This document shows positions 1 to 60,962 of a DNA stretch of 64,000 bases, one piece after another; within the stretch, counting starts at the first letter, position 1; each line of letters begins with the position of its first letter. The stretch comes from Lachnospiraceae bacterium AC2029 (GTDB lineage: Bacteria; Bacillota; Clostridia; Lachnospirales; Lachnospiraceae), in the NCBI GenBank assembly GCA_000703065.1, contig JNLK01000001.1, forward strand, positions 3,742,001 through 3,806,000, read 5' to 3'. Made by a program: the position numbers and the translations under genes. The notes below the pieces were generated by a model, which worked only from the letters and a program-made list of their open reading frames with translations, was not told where the DNA came from and ran no database searches.

Positions 1-689
1 TGAAGCGGAGCATATACCGTCATAAGAGCATACTTCATAGTCGAATTCTCAGTTACATATTCAGACTCGCAGAGAATGAAATAGTTCTTTCCTGCTACGA
101 CCTGGGTTCCGAGAAGTGCGATTGCCTTGTAATCAGCACCGACCAGAGTCTTTACCGCACCGTCAAATGCCTTCTGTGCGTCATCTGTCATTGCGGGACC
201 TGCTCCTTCGATACCGCCGGCCAGCTGCTCCTTGTTAAGACCTACTGCCTCAACACCGGAATCGGATACATCTTCGATCTTGGCATTTCCTTCCAGATCT
301 GCATACAGGGTTACAACTGCGTACTCCGGCTTTGCATCCTGAACCACCTTTGTCTCTGCACAGAGGATACGGTAATTTGTTCCTGCCACAACCTGGGTTC
401 CGAGTACCAGAAGCGGCTCATAGGTTGCACCGTCCAGGCCTTCGGTTGCCTTCTTCATAAGGTTCTTGATCTCATCGGTAACCTTCATGTCATCCGGTTT
501 CGACCATCCGCCGACGATCTTCTCTCCTTCTTTTCCTGCTTCGGAAGCTGCTTCGGTCTTTGCTTCTGTAGCTGCTGAAGTAGCCTGCTCGGAAGCAGCT
601 GCAGTTGTTGCGTTCTCAGACTTACCGCAACCTGCGAACATCAATGACATAGCGAGTGCACATACCACGATCTTTCCAGTTTTCTTCAT
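1..689 (-). CDS. Lipoprotein with two tandem cystatin-like domains (partial, runs off left edge)
   Basis: Translating the minus strand from ATG at 689 gives an open frame of 229 residues to the window edge, so the C-terminus is missing. Residues 1-21 are a lipoprotein signal with lipobox FAGC (Cys21), followed by an Ala/Thr/Glu/Ser linker to about residue 57. Two repeats follow. Each has a GlyGly pair (60-61 and 158-159), then about 38 residues later the motif QVVAGxNY (99-106 and 196-203). After the first comes a hydrophobic strand and a turn (LYADLEG) where cystatins have their second binding loop. GG trunk, helix, QVVAG loop and later hairpin are the hallmarks of the cystatin family of papain-type cysteine protease inhibitors. 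The inhibitory role is inferred from the motif. The fold call is fairly strong. It has an ECF-type promoter (744-772) and is probably displayed on the outer face of the membrane. Confidence 0.8.
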   Translation of the reverse strand, partial: MKKTGKIVVCALAMSLMFAGCGKSENATTAAASEQATSAATEAKTEAASEAGKEGEKIVGGWSKPDDMKVTDEIKNLMKKATEGLDGATYEPLLVLGTQVVAGTNYRILCAETKVVQDAKPEYAVVTLYADLEGNAKIEDVSDSGVEAVGLNKEQLAGGIEGAGPAMTDDAQKAFDGAVKTLVGADYKAIALLGTQVVAGKNYFILCESEYVTENSTMKYALMTVYAPL

Positions 690-743: not shown

Positions 744-772
744 TATACAGATGAAGGATAACAAATGTTGCA
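744..772 (-). promoter_or_regulatory. ECF-sigma-type promoter of the cystatin-like lipoprotein
   Basis: On the minus strand this reads TGCAACATTT, 9 bases, then CATCTGTATA, about 55 bases before the ATG at 689. The same two blocks with the same spacing precede the gene at 2888. The AAC-containing -35 block and CGTC/CATCTG-like -10 block are typical of extracytoplasmic-function sigma factors, and one is encoded at 1521-2135. That it recognises this site is inference. Confidence 0.6.
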
Positions 773-880: not shown

Positions 881-1534
881 TTACTTTATGATCTCATTTG
901 CAAGAGTTTTTGCATTTGCCTCGGATATCCCCGGAATGCAGTACATGGAATAGGAACAGGTCCCGTCTGTCCAGATCACCAGTGCATACTTGTCGGTTTC
1001 ACCCTTCAGAGTGACGCTGACGCCTTCGATCTCAACCTTCTTCTCCTCTTTAAAGGTTTCATAGACTCCGGAATTATCCTTCGTGCCTTTGGAGACCCGG
1101 TAGCTGATGGTTCCGAAGGATCCTCCGTAGTTGATCTCGGCGATCTCATGGTTGATATCCTGGTAATTTCTCTCAGTCACCTCCCCCGGGAAGGATGTGG
1201 GTTCCTTGATATCATATCCCACAGCTTCGGACAGCTCCTTCACCGAATCATAGGTGGTCAGCTGATAGGTTCCCTGGGGCAGGTAATCCTGTTCGGTTGT
1301 TACCGGCGTTTCCGTTGTCTGCACAGGATCTGTCACCGTTTCCCGTGTCTTCCATGGCTGGAGCAGGATCAGAAGGACCGCTGCCGCAGCCAAAACCCCT
1401 GCAGCCGGAATCCATATCTTCAATTTCTGATTTCTCCTCTTCCGGGCAAAATGTTTCTCCACATTTCCGAGGATGCGGCTCTGCATTTCTTCCGTCATTT
1501 GGATCCGGTCCATTGCTTCTTTATATTTTGCCAA
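881..1534 (-). CDS. Membrane anti-sigma factor of the ECF pair, DUF4367-like C-terminal domain
   Basis: 217 residues. A charged cytoplasmic N-terminal segment of about 40 residues is followed by one membrane segment (about 41-61, Ala/Leu/Ile rich) and an extracytoplasmic domain of about 150 residues. Its start overlaps the end of the ECF sigma gene by 14 bases (1521-1534), the usual coupled arrangement of sigma and anti-sigma. The start is TTG at 1534 with AGGAGG nine bases upstream; an ATG at 1516 is the alternative. The outer domain (about 95-217, with VTLKGxxDKYALVIW) resembles that of the secreted protein at 2295-2888 and the DUF4367 family. The expected role is to hold the sigma factor at the membrane until an outside signal acts. 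Assignment rests on topology and gene context. Confidence 0.75.
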   Translation of the reverse strand: MAKYKEAMDRIQMTEEMQSRILGNVEKHFARKRRNQKLKIWIPAAGVLAAAAVLLILLQPWKTRETVTDPVQTTETPVTTEQDYLPQGTYQLTTYDSVKELSEAVGYDIKEPTSFPGEVTERNYQDINHEIAEINYGGSFGTISYRVSKGTKDNSGVYETFKEEKKVEIEGVSVTLKGETDKYALVIWTDGTCSYSMYCIPGISEANAKTLANEIIK

Positions 1535-2135
1535 AGTCGTATTCCTCCTTCAGTATTTCCTTCAGGTGCTCTCTGGCTCTTTTCAGGTCAGATCGCACCG
1601 TGGATTCCTTTCGTCTCAGGATCTTTGCGATCTCCGCAGTCCGATAGCCCTCCACATAAAACAGATGGATCACTTCCCTGGATTGTTCAGGAAGTCCCCG
1701 GACCGCATCCCATACATATGCCAGATCCTCCCTTTTCTCTGCAACCAGCTCCTCATTCAGTTCATCGGTCTCCCGGTATTTATTATAATCGATCCGGTTC
1801 TTCGCCACATTCGCCGCCGTCCTGAGCAGGTAAGCCTTCTCATGCTCCTCGCTCTTAAACTCCGGATCCGCTTCCAGTACCCGGATCAGCGTATCCTGCA
1901 GCACATCCTCCGCATCTGCCATATTATGCAGGTAGGAATAAGCCAGGCGCAGGATCGAATTTCCGTATTCCTTCATGAAACGCTCCGCGCGCCGTTCCAC
2001 GCCTGCCGAATGAAGCTTTCTGACCGGAGCGGAAGGCTTCTCTGATTCGCTTCTCACTGCGGAAAGGATCCTTCTCAGTACGCTTCCGAAATCATCGGCC
2101 GTTTCGGATTTGGGTTGCATGATCACCAGTTCCAT
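1521..2135 (-). CDS. ECF-type RNA polymerase sigma-70 factor
   Basis: 204 residues. After an unusual N-terminal extension of about 45 residues come sigma region 2 (FMKEYGNSILRLAYSYLHN, AEDVLQDTLIRVL) and, after a short linker, region 4 (LPEQSREVIHLFYVEGYRT, AEIAKIL, ESTVRSDLKRAR) with its helix-turn-helix. Regions 1 and 3 are absent, which defines the ECF group. ATG at 2135 has GAGGAG six bases upstream. It is followed, overlapping, by its likely anti-sigma gene. Two nearby genes (starts at 689 and 2888) carry matching ECF-type promoters, but no copy of that motif is seen directly before this gene, so autoregulation is not evident. Confidence 0.92.
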   Translation of the reverse strand: MELVIMQPKSETADDFGSVLRRILSAVRSESEKPSAPVRKLHSAGVERRAERFMKEYGNSILRLAYSYLHNMADAEDVLQDTLIRVLEADPEFKSEEHEKAYLLRTAANVAKNRIDYNKYRETDELNEELVAEKREDLAYVWDAVRGLPEQSREVIHLFYVEGYRTAEIAKILRRKESTVRSDLKRAREHLKEILKEEYDFGKI

Positions 2136-2294: not shown

Positions 2295-2888
2295 TCATCG
2301 TATCTCTTCAAGGATCCGTGCAAATGCCTCATCCGAAACCCCGTCGTTCTGGTAGGTGATGGCATCATAGATCCCGACTGCATATCGGTAATCGCCGTCC
2401 TGCCATATAGCCAGGGAATACACTCCGTCATTTCCCTTCAGGGTTACATCCCTGCCTCCTACGCTGAGTTCCTTCTTCTCCTTGTAGGCGTTGTAATCAC
2501 CGCTGATATCCGACGTGGCCTTCGCCTTCCGAATGGTGATGTAATGCCACTCATCCTTTCGGAGCTGTACCTGGATCATCCGGCTGCTCCTCATAACGTC
2601 GATATCCATTTTGTCGTAACTGTCCACCTTTTCCGGTACAGAGATACTGAACCCGGCCAGCGCTTCCGCCTCATCCAGATCCTTGCACTCTATAAACGGA
2701 CTCCAGGTGGATGGGTCCGACCCCATCAATGGTTCTTCCTTCTGCATTGTCACCGCCTCCGTTTCTTCATCCGCTGTCTTTGTTTCTTCATCTGCCGCTT
2801 CCGCCCTGCCTGCCATGAAGCAGATGCCGGCGGTAGTGACAGTCATGCACGCCACGATTGCCGTGGCTGCGATCCATTTTCTCCTCAT
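2295..2888 (-). CDS. Secreted DUF4367-like protein, probable ECF-sigma target
   Basis: 197 residues starting at ATG 2888 with AGGAGG seven bases upstream. An N-terminal signal or anchor (RRKWIAATAIVACMTVTTAG, then AGRAEA) is followed by an acidic Thr/Glu linker (about 32-52). The C-terminal domain (about 62-197) contains LSVGGRDVTLKGNDGVYSLA and ends DEAFARILEEIR. This matches segment by segment the outer domain of the anti-sigma at 881-1534 (VEIEGVSVTLKG, YALVIW, ANAKTLANEIIK). A matching ECF promoter lies at 2941-2973. It may be an extracytoplasmic partner, competitor or sensor component of the anti-sigma; that is inference. The true enzymatic or binding role is unknown. Confidence 0.75.
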   Translation of the reverse strand: MRRKWIAATAIVACMTVTTAGICFMAGRAEAADEETKTADEETEAVTMQKEEPLMGSDPSTWSPFIECKDLDEAEALAGFSISVPEKVDSYDKMDIDVMRSSRMIQVQLRKDEWHYITIRKAKATSDISGDYNAYKEKKELSVGGRDVTLKGNDGVYSLAIWQDGDYRYAVGIYDAITYQNDGVSDEAFARILEEIR

Positions 2889-2940: not shown

Positions 2941-2973
2941 CTTATACACAGATGGGAGGATGAAAATGTTGCA
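2941..2973 (-). promoter_or_regulatory. ECF-sigma-type promoter of the secreted DUF4367-like protein
   Basis: Minus strand TGCAACATTT, 9 bases, CATCTGTGTATAAG, about 59 bases before the ATG at 2888. It matches the element at 744-772 in sequence, spacing and distance to the start codon. Confidence 0.6.
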
Positions 2974-6301: not shown

Positions 6302-7093
<792 letters not shown>

Positions 7094-58769: not shown

Positions 58770-60899
58770 CTACTCCTCAGCGAAGGCGATCTGACCCTCA
58801 GCATCCACTGTAAATACTACCGGGTCCGTGATCAGCGTATCGCCATATGCATCCTCGATGCAGAAGCTGTACAGATAGGTTCCTTCCGGAAGCTTATTGT
58901 AGGTCAGACTGTCTCCCTCTGCCCAAGTATATGCTTCTCCCTTATCTTCTGTATCATCCAGCTTCATATATCTGGGCTCGATCTGGTCGCCGGCAGCCAG
59001 CTGCTTCACCTCACGGGAAGCCATACCGTTCTCGCCGATACCGTCCCACGCACCCTCAATGACCGTGCTGTAGTCAGGATACTGTCTTACACGAAGGTTG
59101 GTTGCCTTTCCGTTCAGATTGATCGGACATACATAAACCGTGTACTCATCCGTACTCTCTACAATGAAGGTCTCAAGCACGGTTCCGTTCGGAAGTGACA
59201 GCCAGTAACCGTCAAATTTGTCTGAGAAGATACCGGTCTCCCAGTCAGCTTCGACATCATCCGTCTCACCGATCATGTACGCATTTTCATCATCGATCTG
59301 CAGAGAAAGGAATGCAGATACAGTAGTAGCGTATCCAAGTCCGGATTCATCCAGCTGGAACTTATAGTTTCCGTCCTGAACTGCCGGCTCTGCCGCAAAT
59401 GTGATCAGCTTGCTGTCCTTCTCACCCTCTTCATCTGCATAGTTGAAGTAGGTATCATCGGAAATGGAGGACTGTCCGTCCTCTACTGTCCATTCGCCGT
59501 CCTCGGAGAACAGACCGTCGTTGTTGTAACCGGTCTCGGAATATCCCTTGGCTACCATATCCACAAGAGACAGATAATACGGACTGATGCAGATACCGGA
59601 AAGAGTCTTCAGATCCTTGGAGTCCTCCACCTTCAGCGGATAATAAATGGAAAGTCCGCTGGCATTCGTGTGATCACTTCCGTTCTTGTTATATACGATG
59701 CAGTTCTGAAGAGCACTGAGTACCTCCGTACCGTCGGCATAACCGGAACAGTTATTGATGATACCGCCGATATCCACCATGTTGGTATAACCCTCGGACT
59801 GGTTGTTACCGCCGAAGTTATCCGCCTGGTTGATCCCTCTGACAACGCCGGACAGATTGCTCTGAGCCGCCGTATAGAGATTTTGTGCATAGTCGTTAAA
59901 TGCAACCGTGAACTCATCCACCTTATCCAGGTCAACGACCGTCAGAGTACTTCCTGCCTCCTGGCTGCTGGATGCACACTCGTCATAGAAGCTGTCCACG
60001 ATGACCTTTCCGAGATCTGCTCCGCTTGCTCCCGGATTCTGTGCCAGGTAGGTTCCGTAGGTGGTATAATCCCATCCGCTTCCCGGCTCGGTCTCCTGAG
60101 AACCGTAGAAATATCTTGCATAGGTTGCAAGCATATTTGCGGTCTCGATGGTACCCATCAGACAGCAGTCAAAGCCGATAAACTCGAACTTATCCGTCAT
60201 ATTCTGATAGGACTGGGAAAGTGCCTCATTGATCTCTGACAGAGACAGGGTATCACCCTCGTTCAGCTCATCCACGCAGACACCGGAGATGCTTCCGCCG
60301 CCGTGATCCCAGAAGATCAGTCCCATTTTGGCTGCCGGATAATTCTGAACGCCCCAGTCAAGGAAGCCGCTCAGTGTTTCCGCTGCACCCATGTTGGAGA
60401 GGTCGACCGTATCCACCTTCTCCATATCACCGTTCTGTACGACCCAGCGTTCACACGCCTCTGTACTGAAATAATCGTTGATCCACTGGCTGGTACCGCC
60501 GGTCTGGATAACGAACTTCACATTGTCACTCTTCTCTGCGGAAAGCATCTGCTGCAGGTCACTGGTTGCAGAGCCCTGTCCGCTGCTTTCCAGATCCGTA
60601 CCGCAAAGGTATACGAAGATCGTCCATGTGTCAGCCTCACCCATGGAGGTATCCTTCTTTGCCGCACGGGAGATGGACATCTTTCCGTCCGACCGGTTTA
60701 CGGACATGGAAATGCTCTTGGTAGTGGATACCGGCTGCTCCTCTGTATCTGCATCTCCTTCAGTTTCGGCCTCCGTTCCTGCATCGGCCTCTGTCACGGC
60801 CTGGGTATCGGCACTTGTCGTAGAATCGTTATTCGATCCACAGCCACATACAAGCATCATCATTGCGGCCGTCAGGATCGCTGCTATTCTTTTCTTCAT
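58770..60899 (-). CDS. Clostripain-family (C11) cysteine peptidase lipoprotein
   Basis: 709 residues from ATG 60899 (GGGGG five bases upstream). The lipoprotein signal ends at MLVCGC, with a Thr/Glu/Asp linker to about 75. The C11 domain (about 90-400) has TWTIFVYLCGTDLES, FWDHGGGSISGV (catalytic His) and FIGFDCCLMGTIETA (catalytic Cys); a beta-rich C-terminal region follows (about 470-709). The family cleaves after Arg or Lys and is often self-activated by Ca2+. Membrane attachment suggests shaving or processing of surface proteins. It is third in a run after a lipoprotein and a membrane protein, and is separated from the latter by a hairpin. Confidence 0.92.
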   Translation of the reverse strand: MKKRIAAILTAAMMMLVCGCGSNNDSTTSADTQAVTEADAGTEAETEGDADTEEQPVSTTKSISMSVNRSDGKMSISRAAKKDTSMGEADTWTIFVYLCGTDLESSGQGSATSDLQQMLSAEKSDNVKFVIQTGGTSQWINDYFSTEACERWVVQNGDMEKVDTVDLSNMGAAETLSGFLDWGVQNYPAAKMGLIFWDHGGGSISGVCVDELNEGDTLSLSEINEALSQSYQNMTDKFEFIGFDCCLMGTIETANMLATYARYFYGSQETEPGSGWDYTTYGTYLAQNPGASGADLGKVIVDSFYDECASSSQEAGSTLTVVDLDKVDEFTVAFNDYAQNLYTAAQSNLSGVVRGINQADNFGGNNQSEGYTNMVDIGGIINNCSGYADGTEVLSALQNCIVYNKNGSDHTNASGLSIYYPLKVEDSKDLKTLSGICISPYYLSLVDMVAKGYSETGYNNDGLFSEDGEWTVEDGQSSISDDTYFNYADEEGEKDSKLITFAAEPAVQDGNYKFQLDESGLGYATTVSAFLSLQIDDENAYMIGETDDVEADWETGIFSDKFDGYWLSLPNGTVLETFIVESTDEYTVYVCPINLNGKATNLRVRQYPDYSTVIEGAWDGIGENGMASREVKQLAAGDQIEPRYMKLDDTEDKGEAYTWAEGDSLTYNKLPEGTYLYSFCIEDAYGDTLITDPVVFTVDAEGQIAFAEE

Positions 60900-60920
60900 A
60901 CAGTCCCCCTTTTTTAGAGA

Positions 60921-60962
60921 AGACTCCCAAAGCAGCTGTCCTGCCACTCCGGGAGTCTTTCA
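60921..60962 (-). terminator. Hairpin before the clostripain gene (possible attenuator)
   Basis: Arms AGACTCCC / GGGAGTCT around a loop of about 23 bases, in the 92-base gap between the membrane protein gene and the clostripain ATG. No U-tract follows on the minus strand, so partial attenuation or RNA protection is more likely than full termination. Confidence 0.4.

Follow-up and report, generated by a model that had tools for sequence, protein, structure and literature searches.

The first bases of a 64,000-nucleotide stretch of the genome of Lachnospiraceae bacterium AC2029 (contig JNLK01000001.1, positions 3,742,001 to 3,806,000, the whole of which is called the window here) encode on the minus strand a lipoprotein with two cystatin domains, each with an N-terminal glycine and a QVVAG loop. 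Cystatin lipoproteins of two or four domains are widespread in gut and rumen Clostridia, and a promoter-like site is common to the cystatin gene and a neighboring cluster around an extracytoplasmic function (ECF) sigma factor. The lipid anchor, the tandem domains and the common site fit an inducible surface shield, and the explanation which we hold to be moderately probable is a stefin-like double cystatin that shields the cell surface against papain-like peptidases under control of the ECF sigma factor; inhibition, target and sigma control of the cystatin are the parts that we infer.

The window edge cuts the gene, which was completed from the AC2029 genome (a single contig of 3,859,732 bases), where it has 244 codons (L009:11955-12689, minus strand). 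Its features in the window, with the evidence for each, are:

3..689, minus strand: double-cystatin lipoprotein gene, 229 of 244 residues, the last 15 codons and the stop lying outside the window
627..689, minus strand: lipoprotein signal peptide, residues 1-21, with lipobox FAGC and Cys21 (sequence)
528..626, minus strand: low-complexity Ala/Thr/Glu linker, residues 22-54 (sequence)
234..527, minus strand: cystatin domain 1, residues 55-152 (alignment, model, structural alignment)
507..512, minus strand: N-terminal Gly60-Gly61, the first cystatin wedge element (alignments)
381..395, minus strand: loop 1 QVVAG of domain 1, residues 99-103 (sequence, model, alignments)
3..233, minus strand: cystatin domain 2, residues 153-229 in the window and to 244 in the genome (alignment, model; intact domain 2 of a relative)
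90..104, minus strand: loop 1 QVVAG of domain 2, residues 196-200 (sequence, alignments)

The original prediction, made from the letters of the window, of a bacterial lipoprotein with two cystatin-like domains is borne out by the lipobox, on whose rule the lipoprotein call rests, by the repeats, by the predicted folds and by the structural alignments. The first repeat has GGW at 60-62 and QVVAGTNY at 99-106, the second GG at 158-159 and QVVAGKNY at 196-203, and the predicted coordinates are right, as is the predicted spacing of 38-39 residues from GG to QVVAG (60 to 99, 158 to 196). AlphaFold2 models of the lipoprotein and of the intact domain 2 of a relative are both confident (predicted local distance difference test, pLDDT, 92-93), and the structure prediction proposed as a check gave the cystatin fold, one helix wrapped by an antiparallel sheet in cystatin topology. 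When both models were compared with the structures in PDB, the only database of the structural search, cystatins ranked first in VIA-align and the best match over both domains was potato multicystatin (4lzi, 2w9p), while Foldseek alone was modest, with three matches at E 0.001 or better (one phytocystatin and fetuin-B twice). The proposed profile search gave a match to the Pfam family Cystatin (PF00031) over two stretches which is above noise (18.7 bits, E 0.0022) but under the curated cut-off of 22.2 bits. Searched with phmmer against PDB, the protein matched tick mialostatin (E 0.025) and an Amblyomma cystatin (E 0.12). A profile of 59 related domains retrieved cystatins and stefins (best E 0.0006), and as single-domain queries at E 0.01 or better 1 of the 59 found PF00031 and five the related SQAPI family; a role as aspartic-protease inhibitor, as in squash SQAPI, was rejected since the QVVAG loop argues against it. 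Matches of the N-terminus to NCBIfam families (LpqN, BamJ and others), far under cut-off, were set aside as signal-peptide and low-complexity matches.

A search of genome contigs with the single protein found no relative, while a contig search with a 22-row alignment gave 396 candidate stretches, 344 of which encode relatives; the best 80 of these 344 are called the 80 loci here. The columns in which at least 90% of the 59 aligned genus domains agree hold the N-terminal Gly, an Ala of the helix and, within QVVAGTN, the Q, V, G and N. The sole pattern of the 22-row alignment was QVVAG[TK]NY, which biases motif counts in the 80 loci, and rows were therefore split: 91 pattern-bearing rows were left out of the conservation claim, identical rows were counted once, and rows lacking more than 25 of the 97 positions were dropped. 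With the pattern bias included the percentages are higher (Q 98, V 98 and G 99 in 173 rows), and they were not relied on. QxVxG is kept in 38/43 rows from the genus, 21/32 from the family and 51/52 pattern-free rows of the 80 loci, the N-terminal Gly in 41, 27 and 52, respectively. By residue, the wedge counts are Gly8 41, Gln47 39, Val49 40 and Gly51 42 in the genus (n=43), and Gly8 27, Gln47 28, Val49 22 and Gly51 29 in the family (n=32), where the loop is looser (Val49) and the loop-2 Gly82 is kept best (31/32).

The loop-2 turn predicted for the first repeat is present in the model, between strands 122-130 and 136-147, but it reads ADLEG and has no Pro-Trp; in repeat 2 it reads APLQG, also without Pro-Trp. 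Pro-Trp in the second hairpin loop marks type-2 cystatins and was found in 0 of 218 related domains (43+32+52+91), and because of this absence the domain appears to resemble stefins more than type-2 cystatins. Type-2 cystatins also have two disulfides in the domain, whereas here domain 1 has one Cys and domain 2 has two. Judged by these alignments, the domains retain the first two elements of the wedge and have a different sort of third, as stefins do. On a tree of 156 domains from two-domain proteins, no fewer than 14 switches between the first-domain and second-domain positions are required.

The protein ends directly after the second cystatin domain, and a role as carrier of a polymorphic toxin was ruled out, as no toxin domain follows. 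Lipocone polymorphic toxins, as far as the covered part of that work goes, likewise include a bacterial lipobox protein with a cystatin-like domain, but there this domain precedes a C-terminal toxin (PMC12419801).

The genes upstream of the cystatin gene, all on the same strand, and further features needed below are:

745..772, minus strand: promoter-like site TGCAAC-N17-TGTAT, 55 bases before the cystatin start
881..1534, minus strand: putative anti-sigma factor, with an N-terminal part, one membrane helix (by eye) and an extracellular DUF4367-like domain
1521..2135, minus strand: ECF sigma factor (TIGR02937, 83.6 bits, cut-off 42.9)
2295..2888, minus strand: exported DUF4367-like protein, preceding the sigma gene with 159 bases between
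2946..2973, minus strand: one-mismatch copy of the promoter-like site, 57 bases before gene 2295-2888
58770..60947, minus strand: clostripain-type (C11) lipoprotein of 725 residues, one of two C11 peptidases found in the genome

TGCAAC, 17 bases and TGTAT were seen upstream of several genes of congeners. In its longer form, TGCAACAWT-N14-TGTAT, the site has one exact copy in the 3.86-Mb genome, before the cystatin gene (reversed-pattern control 0), and at one mismatch two copies in the window, where 0.03 are expected and none of 100 shuffles has two. The 61 congeners hold 27 exact copies in 18 genomes, compared with two copies of the reversed control. Close orthologs of the sigma factor (70-83% identity; the next 39%) are present in eight congeners besides AC2029, and the site is found in 9/9 genomes with the ortholog versus 9/52 others (Fisher p 2.8e-6, the genomes being related). 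These nine genomes contain 17 sites, seven before cystatin genes, seven before sigma genes, one at a contig end beyond the sigma gene (G060) and two elsewhere, both in G049, one before an exported 483-aa protein and one inside a 1003-codon frame; only one of the 17 lies inside a frame of at least 336 codons, against 8 of 10 in the other genomes. Cystatin is present in seven of the nine (hypergeometric p 0.006), and the other two, G050 and G060, have contigs that break off shortly beyond the sigma gene. Two genomes, G034 and G015, keep the lipoprotein without the sigma ortholog and without the site before the gene. In G049 the exact copy at C74:4110-4137 (L218) stands 51 bases before the exported 483-aa protein, which by its upstream sequence is a possible further member of the regulon.

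The 1.92 million strand-bases of the 80 loci contain 20 copies of TGCAAC-N17-TGTAT, 11 of them in congeners, and every copy lies close to the start of a cystatin gene (15 loci) or at that of a sigma gene (5); in L121 the site is inside the called cystatin start and in L118 it is 6 bases before the start. Five of the nine non-congener site loci (L105, L107, L121, L130, L136) have no such sigma gene in the locus DNA, and none was found in that of L081 and L118. A matrix built from 11 congener sites scored at least 12 in 19 of 65 non-congener cystatin upstream regions versus 2 of 825 open reading frames (ORFs) of at least 200 aa from the same loci, a control set that includes non-genes; at 8 the counts were 21 versus 9 and at 14 they were 17 versus 0. 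The 15 of the 80 genes omitted from this test were congeners, cut at a contig start, or had too little upstream DNA. In Ruminococcus albus the letters are TGTCAC and, at the same spacing, TGTATATAG. Upstream of six cystatin genes from other Clostridia (L098, L101, L111, L119, L090, L128) TGCAAC-N17 is followed by AGTAT or GGTAT-like letters and not by TGTAT, possibly a variant -10 element.

The genome has no second sigma factor of this kind (next match E 3.6e-6), and the putative anti-sigma gene follows the ECF sigma gene directly with a 14-base overlap. The DUF4367-like domain of the anti-sigma factor scores 19.8 bits in Pfam (cut-off 22.1); Pfam gave no DUF4367 match for the 2295..2888 protein, whose domain type occurs fused to cystatin pairs in other genomes. 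Two 65-nt intergenic copies, 74% identical (789-853 and 2227-2291), flank the sigma/anti-sigma pair and could be a mobile repeat or an RNA hairpin. The 29 cystatin genes of congeners comprise 16 lipoproteins, seven choline-binding-type repeat proteins, five membrane-spanning proteins and one single domain without signal, and 13 have a same-strand sigma gene within 1 kb: 8/16 lipoproteins (sigma upstream in seven, downstream in G051), 5/5 membrane proteins, 0/7 choline-binding-type and 0/1 other. In the five membrane proteins the cystatin pair is the extracellular part and the gene starts 1-17 bases downstream of an ECF sigma stop codon, so these fusions (L155-L159) have a putative anti-sigma layout of post-sigma gene, membrane helix (by eye) and extracellular cystatin pair. 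No Pfam anti-sigma domain was found in the window anti-sigma factor or in three scanned fusions (L024, L026, L027), and hhalign of the N-termini of fusions with DUF4367 anti-sigma factors aligned them solely around the membrane helix. In the 80 loci a sigma gene lies within 2.5 kb of the cystatin gene in 13 and farther in one, with 341 kb of DNA near and 559 kb far (p 3e-5, indicative only since the loci are related). Cystatin pairs fused to a DUF4367-like domain are found in Ruminococcus albus KH2T6 and AR67, Ruminococcus RUI259 and a Clostridia genome (L094), in all of which the fusion gene is followed by a sigma gene and a DUF4367-like anti-sigma gene, as also in the family genome G131 (L160); for three more such fusions (L106, L114, L161) no sigma gene was found in the locus DNA.

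The domain is present in 21/61 congeners, 22/299 genomes of the family, 15/391 of the class and 4/398 of the phylum, samples which overlap and each of which includes AC2029. By taxonomy the 80 loci are 79 Bacillota and one Actinomycetota; a ruminant or its gut is named in the record titles of 20, and 37 more have RUG-type isolate names, which we take to mean rumen, while the remaining 23 include Ruminococcus albus KH2T6 and AR67 and Lachnospiraceae bacterium JC7. Two of the 16 congener lipoproteins have four cystatin domains. Cystatin pairs stand behind choline-binding-type cell-wall repeats in seven congener loci (L019, L021, L031, L033, L034, L036, L037), two genomes carrying two such genes side by side; the repeats were confirmed by Pfam on the one protein scanned. 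At L058:688-2064 (plus strand) a cystatin pair is found behind a copper-amine-oxidase-N1-like domain (Pfam 19.4 bits, under cut-off). Elsewhere in the window, at 6302-7093 on the minus strand, a 263-aa protein contains a long region of Ala/Glu/Lys repeats and, close to the C-terminus, a long run of Asp.

Cystatins serve animals and plants as inhibitors of papain-like proteases. In cystatins the N-terminal Gly and QxVxG enter the active site of papain-type peptidases, and family C1 is the peptidase class expected for them. Each domain of the lipoprotein would insert the edge formed by Gly and QVVAG into the active-site cleft of such papain-family (C1) peptidases, and at the cell surface one molecule could inhibit two enzymes. 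An envelope or peptidase signal would free the ECF sigma factor from the DUF4367 anti-sigma factor, after which it would activate both the cluster that encodes it and the cystatin gene. The most probable targets would be exogenous papain-like peptidases of gut and rumen, from bacterivorous ciliates, other microbes or the host. In the rumen ciliate Entodinium caudatum C01A peptidases are highly expressed and bacteria are engulfed (PMC6925433).

Several observations weigh against the shield. In this genome no copy of the site stands directly before the sigma gene, the one-mismatch copy being one gene upstream. The exact site precedes only 7 of the 16 congener lipoprotein genes, and the scan of the 61 congeners found it neither in G051, whose lipoprotein gene adjoins a sigma gene, nor in any of the five membrane-fusion genomes, whose sigma factors must therefore read another promoter. 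Sixteen of the 29 congener cystatin genes have no sigma gene within 1 kb, including eight lipoproteins, two of which have less than 820 bases of upstream DNA, too little to tell. To these can be added the missing Pro-Trp and the rumen link, a lead only, as it comes from record titles without a baseline. C1 peptidases are present in 21/21 cystatin-bearing congeners but in 57/61 congeners overall, and because they are nearly universal in the genus their co-occurrence cannot name the target. Of three inhibitors, iodoacetamide, which acts on cysteine peptidases, had the least effect on protozoal counts in rumen fluid (PMC6908469).

The likeliest rival, which overlaps with the shield and seems to us somewhat unlikely, regards the cystatin pair as a receptor domain for the ECF system, acting directly in the five fusions and via a lipidated partner in AC2029, with inhibition secondary. 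It accounts for the position of all five membrane-spanning genes of the genus just after a sigma gene and for the fusion of cystatin pairs to the DUF4367-like domain, which also forms the extracellular part of the anti-sigma factor. It also has a precedent in RsiV, an anti-sigma lysozyme receptor that binds the active site of the enzyme, inhibits it and releases sigma-V (PMC5014341). By analogy, RsiV would be a precedent for the cystatin fusions as peptidase receptors: in both an extracellular domain of an anti-sigma system would occupy the attacker's active site, to report and to inhibit, the fusions being read from gene order and layout alone, but enzyme class and domain differ. However, QxVxG is lost from domain 1 in two of the five fusions (L027 and L029), the window anti-sigma factor has no cystatin domain, and the seven choline-binding-type genes and eight of the lipoprotein genes of the genus lack a sigma gene within 1 kb.

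Self-protection or self-regulation, in which the cystatin would restrain the bacterium's own exported cysteine peptidases, we consider unlikely. The genome has candidates for such a role, one papain homolog (L173:2991-4748) that has a membrane or signal segment at its N-terminus and whose Cys, His and Asn motifs are intact by eye, and the two C11 peptidases, one being the lipoprotein of the window. But no C1 or C11 peptidase gene found in this genome adjoins the cystatin gene, and with a C1 enzyme in 57 congeners and cystatin in 21 of the 61, most enzyme-bearing congeners live without the inhibitor. Clostripain had been suggested as a possible target; nothing found points there, and C11 enzymes are not known as targets of cystatins. 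Improbable, finally, is a cystatin fold without peptidase inhibition, such as an adhesin or cell-wall module, which is in accordance with the absent Pro-Trp loop, with the fold's service in monellin, latexin and fetuins and with the forms carrying choline-binding-type repeats, but not with wedge residues that are among the best kept of the positions tabulated in pattern-unselected rows, solely the loop-2 Gly82 being better kept in the family.

Plant multicystatins, the potato protein having eight domains, resemble the shield proposed here in their head-to-tail cystatin domains, but here two domains (four in some relatives) are placed on a lipid anchor. Bacterial cystatins and stefins with a patchy distribution, among them stefins in Clostridia and a triplicated, three-domain protein in Polaribacter, were described by Kordis and Turk in 2009, and defence against host proteolysis was proposed as their role (PMC2784779). 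The lipoprotein is like them in its cystatin domain with Gly and QxVxG, whereas the covered part of that survey is silent on lipoproteins, on tandem pairs in Clostridia and on a link to sigma factors. Single-domain cystatins with frames of 87-95 codons and no signal peptide, in genomes of 5.7-6.9 Mb (L063, L064, L066), are possibly the clostridial stefins of the survey. In the open-access journal literature searched there was no report linking cystatins to anti-sigma or ECF factors, none of cystatins in Lachnospiraceae and none of DUF4367; the Clostridia cystatin lipoprotein family, its ECF neighborhood, the shared site and the anti-sigma fusions were not found there. Tandem cystatins on a bacterial surface lipoprotein had been expected to be unusual, an expectation to be qualified: bacterial cystatins and stefins were already published in 2009, and the lipoproteins are widespread in gut and rumen Clostridia.

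Bacterial cystatins and a proposed role for them have been known since 2009; through the shared promoter-like site, the sigma neighborhood and the fusions they gain a place in regulation and a role that can be tested. Tentatively, we regard it as possible that in gut and rumen Clostridia the cystatin pair would, as ectodomain of an anti-sigma factor, capture a peptidase and free the ECF sigma factor and, as sigma-induced lipoprotein or wall protein, block the enzyme. If the anti-sigma fusions do signal the presence of peptidases, RsiV would be joined by another anti-sigma that serves as receptor for an enzyme, in this case one of a different class. Ciliate predation lowers nitrogen use by ruminants (PMC6908469), and in the rumen such a system would bear on how bacteria survive this predation.
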